DNA of 30,777 nucleotides from a virus: IMG/VR virus record IMGVR_UViG_3300011251_000002, positions 1 to 30,777 of that record. The stretch is one strand, 5' to 3'. Made by a program: the position numbers and the translations under genes. This document shows, piece after piece, positions 8,849 through 12,986 of the stretch. How positions within the stretch are numbered: the first letter of the stretch is position 1; every line of letters starts with the position of its first letter. The notes under the pieces were generated by a model, which saw only the letters and a list, made by a program, of their open reading frames with translations, was not told the origin of the DNA and did not search any database.

Positions 8849-9472
8849 TTAGAATAGTTGAAGTTGTTTCTTGTGTTGCTCAAATCGTTTGACTCCAGCC
8901 GCGTGGTAATCTTCGTCAATTTCCCAAAGGTCTAAATCAAACTTTAGATTGTGGCAAGCTAAAGCTATTGACATTGAGCCACCGTGTGTATCGAGTATCT
9001 TGTCTCCTTCCTTTGCGTAGTTGGCTAGTAGCCATTCGTAGAGTTTAACGGGTTTTTGGGTGCTGTGTATTCTATTTTCTTGACCGTTTGCAGAATACTT
9101 AAATATCTTAGATGTGCCGCTAAATGATGTATATGCCAATTCAGCTTGTGCAAAAGTTATCCCATCAGGTTGTTTCTTATCCCAAACAATAAAGTGTTTG
9201 CATGAAATATTTAAGTAATAATTAAGTCCCCATATAATCTGATTCTTCGAAACTCTTTTTAATTCATCAAAATAATCTTGTGTTGGAGGTTTAGAATCCC
9301 ATGATTTTTCTTTAGTCCTATTGTATTTTTTTGACCTACTCCCATTTCCAACAAGACTAGCATCAATACCATAAGGAGGGTCTACAATAGCCAAGTCGTA
9401 AGCGTTGTCTTTTATCAACTTCATTGCTTCCAAACTATCGCCTAAATGTAAATTGATTGTGCTTCGGTTCAT
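8849..9472 (-). CDS. DNA methyltransferase, beta-class (adenine-N6 or cytosine-N4)
   Basis: A 207-aa enzyme with catalytic motif IV DPPY at residues 31-34, the HSTQKP block at 136-141 and a SAM-binding motif I variant DTHGGS at 161-166. The order, with motif IV before motif I, defines the beta class. Usual function is transfer of a methyl group from S-adenosylmethionine to an amino group of A or C in DNA. It sits in the replication operon with 4-nt overlap to the DnaC-like gene. No restriction partner is present, so self-protection is likely. The second Gly and Ser in motif I replace the usual FxGxG. Confidence 0.9.
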   Translation of the reverse strand: MNRSTINLHLGDSLEAMKLIKDNAYDLAIVDPPYGIDASLVGNGSRSKKYNRTKEKSWDSKPPTQDYFDELKRVSKNQIIWGLNYYLNISCKHFIVWDKKQPDGITFAQAELAYTSFSGTSKIFKYSANGQENRIHSTQKPVKLYEWLLANYAKEGDKILDTHGGSMSIALACHNLKFDLDLWEIDEDYHAAGVKRFEQHKKQLQLF

Positions 9473-10113
9473 TTCCTTAAATCGTTACCAGTTACTCCAA
9501 TAATATTAAACATCTCGTGCATTCTTGACTCAATTCTCTTGCCGTATTTTTTAGCCATCATATCAGCGTTAAGGTTACTCGTGGCAAAGGTTAGGTAGCC
9601 TTTGTTTGTGTAAAGCTGGTGGCGTTGTGTAAGCGTGTCAATGCCTACGTTAATCTCAGTACCGTATCTTTTAATGCTTGAATGCTCTTCTCCTAAGTCG
9701 TCTATTCCAAACATCTTACTTTGTAACGCTGACTCTAATGGATAAACGTCTGAGTGGTTTGAGTCTAGTTGGTAAAGTCGTTCCATCTCGAAACCCGTGA
9801 AGATGTTAAATTTAAATTTGTTTGTATATCCCATCATCAAACTAAGTGCCTTCAGGTAAACCGTCTTTCCTACTCCCGTGTTTCCCATTAGAATAATTCC
9901 TTTGGAAAGGTCACCTTTGAACTTTTCAGATTGTACGCAATACCTTACAAGCTGGTCAGTAGTTGCTGGGCTTACGTCTCTCCAGTTCGGAACGATAGAC
10001 TTACAACATTCAATAAACGCTAACCTTGCCCCGTTAAATTTCTCTTCTCCGTATGGCTTTAGCTTATAAACTGTTGAGCCGTTGTTCAGGTGGTTTAAAT
10101 AGTCTTGTATCAT
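9469..10113 (-). CDS. DnaC-like AAA+ ATPase, helicase loader
   Basis: A 214-aa ATPase with Walker A GNTGVGKT at 77-84, Walker B FGIDDLG around 135-141 and a sensor-1 ATSN at 177-180. This is the DnaC/IstB-type AAA+ arrangement. Directly downstream of the lambda O-like initiator (1-nt overlap), it plays the part of lambda P: bringing host DnaB helicase to the phage origin. No phage helicase is seen, which fits dependence on the host enzyme. Confidence 0.88.
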   Translation of the reverse strand: MIQDYLNHLNNGSTVYKLKPYGEEKFNGARLAFIECCKSIVPNWRDVSPATTDQLVRYCVQSEKFKGDLSKGIILMGNTGVGKTVYLKALSLMMGYTNKFKFNIFTGFEMERLYQLDSNHSDVYPLESALQSKMFGIDDLGEEHSSIKRYGTEINVGIDTLTQRHQLYTNKGYLTFATSNLNADMMAKKYGKRIESRMHEMFNIIGVTGNDLRK

Positions 10114-10769
10114 TACGGGTAAGTTACGTTATCAAAGTTTTTAAAATCATACTCTTGGTTACTCTTCAGATTATCGGGTTTGAACCAAACGCTCCGAGCC
10201 TTTTGCTTCCAGTTCTTAACGGTGTTGCCCCTTCCGTCCTTCCAAACTCTGCCGCGTGGCTTTCTACTTTCTTCGTAGTATTCAAACATTTTTGTAGCTG
10301 AGTCCTTAGTGTAACCGTTTTCGTCAAAGTACAAAATAACTTCTTCTAACGGTGGTGGTGCTTGTTCCTTGTTTATTGGTTTACTTGTTTCTTGTTTATC
10401 TATACTATCAATGCTTTCACTTTGCTTTGTCCCGTGCTTTATCAATGCTTTATCAAGTGCTTTGTCAAGTGCTTTGTCAAAATTTGATAGGGCAACTATG
10501 TTAGCAGAGTATTGATTCTTTGACCTTTGAACCATTGAAATAAAACCCCATTCCACAAGGTCGTTTAAAGTGTTGATGTAAGTATTGTAAGACTTGATTC
10601 CGATAGCTTCCATTGCCATCGTGGTCGGCATTCCAAACTTTTGCTTCCAGCCTAATCGGTTGCAATGTTCAACCGCAAAGAAATATAGAGCCGTGTGGTT
10701 TGGTTTTATCTTCTCAGGATTCTCGAAGCACCAGTCGAACCATTTTCGTGACAAGTCGTAGCCGTTCAT
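10113..10769 (-). CDS. Replication initiator, lambda O-like layout (winged-helix N-terminus)
   Basis: A 218-aa protein. Residues 1-95 look like a winged-helix DNA-binding domain (MPTTMAMEAIGIKSYNTYIN, NTLNDLVEWGFISMVQRS). Residues 98-120 are a repetitive linker (DKALDKALDKAL). Residues 140-200 form a C-terminal domain with GRVWKDGRGNTVKNWKQKAR, seen in replication proteins of Bacteroidota phages. The linker DNA carries iterons, as in lambda gene O. The gene overlaps the HNH gene by 4 nt (ATGA) and is followed by the helicase loader, copying the O-P order. Confidence 0.8.
   Translation of the reverse strand: MNGYDLSRKWFDWCFENPEKIKPNHTALYFFAVEHCNRLGWKQKFGMPTTMAMEAIGIKSYNTYINTLNDLVEWGFISMVQRSKNQYSANIVALSNFDKALDKALDKALIKHGTKQSESIDSIDKQETSKPINKEQAPPPLEEVILYFDENGYTKDSATKMFEYYEESRKPRGRVWKDGRGNTVKNWKQKARSVWFKPDNLKSNQEYDFKNFDNVTYP
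10412..10478 (-). repeat. Iterons, putative origin of replication
   Basis: Five copies of GA(C/T)AAAGCA plus one degenerate copy lie on the minus strand, with plus-strand starts at 10412 (degenerate), 10423, 10435, 10446, 10458 and 10470. Spacing is 11 or 12 nt, about one helical turn. The copies fall in two different reading frames (DKAL in three, KH and KQ in others), so the repeat is kept at DNA level. Position inside the initiator gene mirrors lambda ori. Confidence 0.6.
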
Positions 10770-11221
10770 ATTCTGTAATCTATAAATGAATCACTCTTTC
10801 TTGAATTGCAACTTCTGCATAATGTTTGCAAGTTGCTTAGTGTGTTATTTCCACCCTTATTTACTGGCACAATATGGTCAACAGTTAGTTGCTTACTAGA
10901 ACTACAACACAAACATCTCCATCGGTCTCTTTTAAATAGCCATATTCTAATTTTCTTTTTACTAATAAATGCCTGAGCATCTCGTCTAGGTTGGTTTCGG
11001 ATGCGTTCATTGTGTTCTATAAACGAAACTGCTCCTTTCAACAGTAGAGATTTTAAAACACCTAAGTCGTTGTTGATAAAAATACGGTTTGCCTTTCCTT
11101 TACAAATTATCTCATCAAGTATATTTTGGTTTTCGTAGTCCAGATATGATGAAAATCCAGCCATACCACCCCACTCAACTTTATCAATTACCTCTTGAAG
11201 TATCGAATCTCTTGTTATCAT
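10766..11221 (-). CDS. HNH endonuclease domain protein
   Basis: A 151-aa protein with a C-terminal HNH nuclease: KRDRWRCLCC (97-106), LTVDHIVPVNKGG (112-124) with the catalytic D115-H116 pair, N130 in NTLSNLQTLC, and CRSC at 135-138. The first 80 residues are helical and unassigned. It may be a stand-alone homing-type nuclease or an operon member with a role in replication; the 4-nt overlap with the initiator gene suggests stable integration in the operon. Confidence 0.85.
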   Translation of the reverse strand: MITRDSILQEVIDKVEWGGMAGFSSYLDYENQNILDEIICKGKANRIFINNDLGVLKSLLLKGAVSFIEHNERIRNQPRRDAQAFISKKKIRIWLFKRDRWRCLCCSSSKQLTVDHIVPVNKGGNNTLSNLQTLCRSCNSRKSDSFIDYRI

Positions 11222-12281: not shown

Positions 12282-12559
12282 TCTTGTGATTCATTGGTTA
12301 CAGTTACGCTTGTCTCTACCAGCTTGTCGATAGCATCCTGACAACCTTCGATTAGGTTAACTATTGAAGTGTCCGTGCTTCCGTTTGAATAGGTGTCGTT
12401 TAGAAACTTGTCTACTTCTTTAGCGAAGGCGTTTCCTTTGTTCTTTAGCTGGTGCTTAAATGCTGAACTACCTCCGAAGTCGTCTAACGCTTCAACAAAA
12501 GACTGTGCAAATACCATACACTTTAACGCTTTAAGGTGCTGCTCGTTCATCTTCTTCAA
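12278..12559 (-). CDS. Hypothetical helical protein (93 aa)
   Basis: A 93-aa protein starting MKKMNEQHLKALKCMVFAQS; a second ATG nine bases in (MNEQHL) is equally possible. Predicted helical with a Ser/Thr-rich end. It overlaps the DnaA-like gene by 20-29 nt. No family recognised; context suggests an early gene. Confidence 0.65.
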   Translation of the reverse strand: MKKMNEQHLKALKCMVFAQSFVEALDDFGGSSAFKHQLKNKGNAFAKEVDKFLNDTYSNGSTDTSIVNLIEGCQDAIDKLVETSVTVTNESQE

Positions 12560-12986
12560 TTTGATTGTACTTAAAATTTATCTTAGCTATCATCGGGTCG
12601 TTGAACTCCAGCATTCCCTTGACTACTTTAACTGAATAAAGAATCGTTGCGTGGTTTCGCTTGAAAACGTCCGCAATCATCTTGAGCGTGTAGCCGTGAG
12701 AATATAGTTCCGTGTAGACCTTCCAAATAGCAAACTGCCGGGCGCAAACTAATTGCCTTTCGCGGCTCTTGGAACTGATTAGGTCGTAACTGTAACCAGT
12801 TGCTAGAACGACTCTGCGAAGTATCTCCTGAGTCTCACGGTGAATATCAACATACTTAACATCTCCGTTAAGCAAATCAATCAAGTGCTGGGTTTTATAG
12901 TTGAAATACCCACCAGCTAACGTAAGAATCTCGTTTAACTCTTGTTTTATTTCGGGCGTTATCCGAACCGTTAAGCTAGTTTCCAT
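12531..12986 (-). CDS. DnaA domain IV-like DNA-binding protein
   Basis: A 151-aa protein. Residues 55-122 look like the C-terminal DNA-binding domain of DnaA: SKSRERQLVCARQFAIWKVY, then YTLKMIADVFKRNHATILYS, matching the (R)xREIVxARQxAMYL and GRDHSTVLHA patterns. The AAA+ ATPase part of DnaA is absent. The N-terminus (TVRITPEIKQELNEIL) resembles a ribbon-helix-helix opening. It may bind DnaA boxes on the host or phage DNA, or regulate transcription. It overlaps its upstream neighbour by 16 nt. Confidence 0.75.
   Translation of the reverse strand: METSLTVRITPEIKQELNEILTLAGGYFNYKTQHLIDLLNGDVKYVDIHRETQEILRRVVLATGYSYDLISSKSRERQLVCARQFAIWKVYTELYSHGYTLKMIADVFKRNHATILYSVKVVKGMLEFNDPMIAKINFKYNQIEEDERAAP

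Follow-up and report, generated by a model that had tools for sequence, protein, structure and literature searches.

The window, by which we mean the whole 30,777-base record analysed here, of a virus of Bacteroidota bacteria, carries nearly all of its genes on the minus strand, including an initiator gene with a candidate replication origin inside its coding sequence. The features on which the argument draws are, in window coordinates:

9469..10113, minus strand: gene for a DnaC-like helicase loader (PHROG_3277, E 4e-9; PHROG_50, E 3e-8), overlapping the end of the initiator gene
10113..10769, minus strand: open reading frame of the initiator, 218 aa, with a winged-helix N-terminal domain, a linker encoding the putative origin and a C-terminal domain
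10170..10361, minus strand: C-terminal domain, about residues 137-200, swapped between relatives, the proposed contact with helicase or loader
10362..10396, minus strand: second repeat row, A-rich, five AAC[A/C]A words at steps of 7, 8, 8 and 7 nt
10401..10406, minus strand: AGTATA box, starting 11 nt after the start of the last AAAGCA
10412..10478, minus strand: iteron row of six AAAGCA words, the first copy at 10470-10475 and the last at 10412-10417
10485..10769, minus strand: winged-helix N-terminal domain, residues 1-95 (AlphaFold2 pLDDT 94), proposed reader of the AAAGCA words
12531..12986, minus strand: gene for a DnaA domain IV-like DNA-binding protein (Pfam Bac_DnaA_C, E 3e-10)

An HNH endonuclease gene (10766-11221, minus strand) lies directly upstream of the initiator gene and overlaps its start by four bases. 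The protein encoded at 12531-12986 resembles DnaA domain IV without the ATPase part, and may possibly act as a helper of the initiator.

Just after the winged-helix domain, the minus strand carries exact AAAGCA words at 10470-10475, 10458-10463, 10446-10451, 10435-10440, 10423-10428 and 10412-10417, at steps of 12, 12, 11, 12 and 11 nt and in codon frames 0, 0, 0, 2, 2 and 1. An earlier note on this DNA had described a repeat row inside the initiator gene, and the row proved to be real and stronger than claimed there. Five copies fit the proposed GA(C/T)AAAGCA exactly; the sixth, which had been called degenerate, reads GTGAAAGCA and keeps the full AAAGCA core, its different flank arising because a T before a frame-1 AAAGCA would create a TAA stop codon. 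Across the family the fraction of frame-1 copies preceded by T is 0.00 of 99, while copies in frames 0 and 2 mostly follow C or T. The frame shift with retention of the word at the third-to-fourth step was correctly seen, but the codon frame changes twice rather than once. The 11-12 nt spacing also holds, but phasing with the helix is only approximate, the mean step being 11.6 and not 10.5 nt. From first to last copy the distance is 58 nt over five steps, or 5.5 turns at 10.5 bp per turn, and the row therefore drifts by about half a turn, so that the copies are not strictly on one face. Neighbouring copies lie near the same face of the helix and the whole row does not; a strict same-face reading is ruled out by the spacing. 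The six-copy chain was reached in 0/2000 synonymous re-codings of the same protein, and the six words exceed the number found in every one of 500 such re-codings (mean 1.3).

For the family as a whole we used a null model in which each protein was kept and its synonymous codons were redrawn, applied to 47 representatives. AAAGCA was the hexamer most enriched over this null, with 282 words against 62±7 under re-coding and never more than 85, and the excess extended to every frame (observed versus expected: frame 0, 122 vs 41; frame 1, 89 vs 11; frame 2, 71 vs 10). Codon choice points the same way: of 127 KA dipeptides in the linkers, 122 (96%) are encoded by AAAGCA, versus 104 of 309 elsewhere (34%), and the word is present at 85 of 87 linker occurrences of [EQ]S[TNISK] (98%) versus 19 of 132 (14%), and at 71 of 101 of xK[HQ] (70%) versus 61 of 377 (16%). 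Synonymous codons are mixed at invariant residues of the N-terminal domain, and shared ancestry therefore does not explain the kept word. The AAAGCA words are selected as DNA, not as peptide. The earlier note had argued for this, naming relatives that keep a DKAL protein repeat and lose the DNA word as the case that would speak against it; the relatives do the reverse, changing the peptide and keeping the word in all three frames. The regular LDKA peptide encoded by the frame-0 copies is what would be expected of a helical DKAL linker whose DNA repetition merely follows from the protein, but re-coding yields under a quarter of the observed words, and the word is still kept in frames 2 and 1, where the encoded peptides (IKH/TKQ and ES/QS, respectively) are quite different. 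The synonymous null and the counts per dipeptide refute this protein-level explanation, to which we assign a negligible chance.

Relatives were collected in two sets: 34 in viral contigs, found with peptides outside the linker, and a second set from an alignment of the N-terminal domain only, which gave 22 bacterial and 420 viral loci, 80 of the viral loci being kept. Those found with the N-terminal domain come from Flavobacteria, Sphingobacteria, Cytophagia, Bacteroidia and their phages, with Lutibacter, Chryseobacterium, Winogradskyella, Flavobacterium, Pedobacter, Cecembia and Bacteroidales among the organisms named in the records. Directly after the domain, 83 of 84 distinct linkers hold three to nine AAAGCA words, mostly in the frame order 0, 2, 1; the sole exception, L058, has none, and its domain aligned over residues 1-72 only. 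As the earlier note had expected of related phages, repeat number varies while the word is retained: L002 has one extra 12-nt unit, and the cultured Polaribacter phage Danklef_1 has nine words. The Danklef_1 gene (L141:29039-29929) is annotated as a transcriptional regulator; by the present analysis it is probably a replication initiator with a nine-word origin. Word spacings in the 47 representatives were 11 (68 times), 12 (152 times), 23 (14 times) and 24 nt (4 times), with a few longer gaps. A separate 23-nt unit, considered for L021 and L026, where alternate copies are changed, was dropped as not general.

Each of 18 phage records searched contains just one site with a pattern of three such words, and across ten bacterial genomes (3.5-5.8 Mb) the pattern is nearly confined to the initiator gene; single extra matches were seen elsewhere in two of these genomes (G021:C22:1259, G021:C32:31171 and G026:C10:86468). 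Scanning viral contigs by the DNA pattern alone recovered the initiator gene many times, together with K/A-rich coding repeats and a few other proteins. Among plasmids, none was found to carry the initiator's N-terminal domain, and there was one weak match to a DnaD domain.

Beside the AAAGCA words lie two elements that the earlier note had missed, the AGTATA box and the second repeat row. In a search that also accepted the variant GATATA, the box was found in 43 representatives, and in all 43 the distance from the start of the last AAAGCA to its own start is exactly 11 nt; TAGTAT/AGTATA is enriched over the synonymous null. The stretch that follows is 55% A across the family and contains AAAC[A/C]A-type repeats every 7-8 nt: [AT]AC[ACT]A words are spaced by 7 nt 62 times and by 8 nt 64 times, against 15 and 14 expected under the synonymous null, and the self-similarity at a lag of 8 nt stands at z 11.6 over the same null. 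In the window alone, the second row gives a p of 0.0045. A period of 7-8 nt is no multiple of three, so the second row, too, is selected as DNA. Computed duplex stability here is low (median, 3.8th percentile of the loci), and by its placement we propose that the row could serve as a DNA unwinding element.

The N-terminal domain was modelled by AlphaFold2 (pLDDT 94) as helix-helix-strand-helix-helix-strand-strand, that is, a winged helix, a fold which suggests DNA binding. In the PDB it resembles many winged-helix proteins, including the iteron-binding plasmid initiators 4pt7 (4pt7_B, Z 8.5, rmsd 3.3, 86 residues aligned) and 5kbj (5kbj_C, Z 8.1), the fold being common to many unrelated proteins of this kind. 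Many transcription regulators (MarR, Fur, LexA) are also neighbours, and a role in gene control is therefore compatible with the fold. Among viral models the nearest named neighbours are replication proteins, including that of Gundel_1 at 19% identity. By sequence the initiator has weak profile matches (PHROG_18020, 'replication initiation O-like', E 0.002; PHROG_23776, E 1e-6), no usable match in Pfam and NCBIfam, and no relative in the PDB by profile search; 39 members yielded no match to Pfam RepA_N. The description 'lambda O-like' given in the earlier note draws on function and layout; sequence similarity to the O-like profile is weak.

At least 21 types of C-terminal domain occur among the homologues compared. 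The window and L008 have the C-terminal half in common, with N-terminal domains 62% identical, while the window and L011 have the N-terminal half in common and differ in the C-terminal domain. The C-terminal domain of the window initiator is found behind unrelated N-terminal domains as well, in Flavobacterium phages and there without AAAGCA rows. Of the 44 relatives with sequence for the 3 kb downstream, 30 have a gene there for a DnaC-like loader, a DnaB-like helicase or a primase-helicase; in the other 14 no helicase or loader was recognised over that distance. GC skew, suggested in the earlier note as a check and computed for ten phage records and the window, places the row near the minimum in some phages but not in others.

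In the replication gene of Gundel_1, GGAAC occurs five times at a step of exactly 11 nt, in frames 2, 1, 0, 2 and 1 (0/1000 re-codings), and is followed, at gene positions 357 to 389, by five AAAC words with an 8-nt period (chain test p 0.015). In this one case it would appear that the word changes with the reading domain while the layout is retained. A general word-chain test of other winged-helix initiators in Bacteroidota genomes, covering the extractable genes (many could not be extracted), was mixed. Words at three 11-nt steps through the frames occur in L286 and L306, and CAAGCA at 12-nt steps in L284, for whose divergent domain a search of viral contigs found no relatives; several others show nothing. 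We therefore make no general claim on Bacteroidota initiators.

Taken together, we consider it probable, at roughly 85%, that 10362-10478 is a phage replication origin inside its own initiator gene, of the lambda and pSK41 kind, working by the mechanism outlined here. The selection for DNA words, the fixed layout, the predicted winged-helix fold and the gene context are the grounds for this reading; the earlier note, too, had taken the row for the replication origin. A DnaC-like loader or helicase next door, a predicted winged helix and an AT-rich repeat row all fit an origin of the lambda type. Binding by the N-terminal domain, opening, helicase delivery and a replication start at the row would follow in this way. 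The winged-helix domain would bind the row of direct AAAGCA words, and because these lie 11-12 bp apart the bound subunits would form a continuous, slightly twisting row along the DNA. This row of subunits would strain the A-rich 7-8-nt repeats beyond the AGTATA box until they open, and the opened strand would receive the replicative helicase, delivered by the C-terminal domain and the DnaC-like loader encoded next door. The proposed roles are thus split: the N-terminal domain would read the word of the first row, and the second row would be read during opening or helicase loading. Tentatively, and at somewhat less than even odds, we suggest that the 7-8-nt A-rich row may act, as a single strand, as a code that the helicase-loading machinery or the initiator itself reads, in a role like that of the DnaA-trio, and common to Bacteroidota phage initiators with unrelated first-row words. 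If so, the two rows would represent a general origin design, a domain-specific word row followed by a common opening row, running through the reading frames of a linker.

Might the words instead be an operator, through which the winged-helix protein controls transcription of the replication genes from within its own gene, replication starting elsewhere? The resemblance of the fold to MarR, Fur and LexA and the annotation of the Danklef_1 homologue would suit such a role, but as many as nine copies midway through a coding sequence, the fixed AGTATA box with the 7-8-nt A-rich row alongside, and the adjoining loader or helicase gene all fit an origin better. We regard an operator with replication starting elsewhere as unlikely; a dual role as operator and origin is possible. 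Less likely again is a reader other than the initiator's own N-terminal domain, whether the phage's DnaA domain IV-like protein, a host factor or some further DNA-binding protein. Of 87 relatives, 23 do have a DnaA domain IV-like gene upstream of the initiator, at a distance of up to about 3 kb, and in Gundel_1 one immediately precedes the replication gene, yet most relatives with the words have no such gene within that distance, and the words directly follow the N-terminal domain and differ where the domain differs, as in Gundel_1. The swaps between the window, L008 and L011 could further suggest a recombination joint at which phages exchange C-terminal domains. A mere joint, however, needs neither 11-12 nt steps through three frames nor a fixed distance to AGTATA, and swaps are to be expected where a domain moves together with its origin, as in plasmid pPR9 (PMC5703833). 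Such a joint as the explanation of the row seems to us very improbable, even beside the other-reader alternative.

For the preferred reading, an origin within the initiator gene, several known systems offer comparison. In lambda O the N-terminal part binds DNA and the C-terminal part binds the helper, and the gene of the helicase-loading partner adjoins; iteron plasmids of the RK2 and P1 type are not known to have their iterons within the rep coding sequence. The window resembles lambda ori in having its repeats within the initiator coding region, an AT-rich stretch beside them and a copy number that varies among relatives. In lambda, the initiator-binding repeats lie in the middle of gene O and are followed by an AT-rich stretch (PMC5043065, PMC7466680), and iterons number four in lambda and six in Stx phages (PMC7466680). 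The lambda iterons, however, to which O dimers bind, are near-perfect inverted repeats of 19 bp (PMC5043065), whereas the window's iterons are not inverted repeats of this kind but short, asymmetric words repeated directly every 11-12 bp through three frames; its AT-rich part is itself a 7-8-nt repeat row, and its partner is DnaC-like where that of lambda is P.

The boxes bound by the winged-helix N-terminal domain of pSK41 Rep lie within rep itself, the stretch of protein that the origin encodes is a dispensable central linker, the C-terminal domain is host-specific, and in RepA_N plasmid initiators domain and origin can be swapped as a unit (PMC5703833). The predicted winged helix of the window initiator, with 4pt7 and 5kbj among its fold neighbours, is similar to that of pSK41 Rep, but no sequence similarity to RepA_N initiators was found by PDB profile search or with Pfam RepA_N, and pSK41 has four Rep boxes where the window family has three to nine short words. 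RK2 has direct repeats beside an AT-rich unwinding element, itself made of 13-mers (PMC5043065). The window is like RK2 and P1 in having direct repeats beside an AT-rich stretch, here a putative unwinding element, but unlike them in that both rows lie inside coding sequence and the second has a period of 7-8 nt. In kind, the layout appears to be that of lambda ori and pSK41 rep; what seems to be new is the passage of short asymmetric words through three frames and the patterned second row.

A literature search, mostly outside subscription papers, found no description of the origin of this initiator family or of its iterons. From sequence alone, the pattern allows a likely origin to be placed in hundreds of Bacteroidota phages that are uncharacterised, and would turn proteins annotated as 'hypothetical' or 'transcriptional regulator' into initiators. 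It also provides a clean natural case of a DNA signal running through all three reading frames of a protein.

Comparable repeats were seen in other places. Six-nt GTGTAA/GTAAAT repeats, encoding SVSVSVNDNVN or NVNENVNVNEN, lie in the linkers of replication proteins in Flavobacterium phage elemoA (L140:2536-3270) and L222, and are possibly another type of unwinding element. AAAGC-type words, mostly at 11-nt steps through the frames, occur in K/S/Q/N-rich linkers of apparently unrelated phage proteins, some of them replication-like (L222, L195, L211, L233 and L240). In L268, around 8677, AAAGCAAACTT is repeated head-to-tail at 11 nt, apparently outside a gene.
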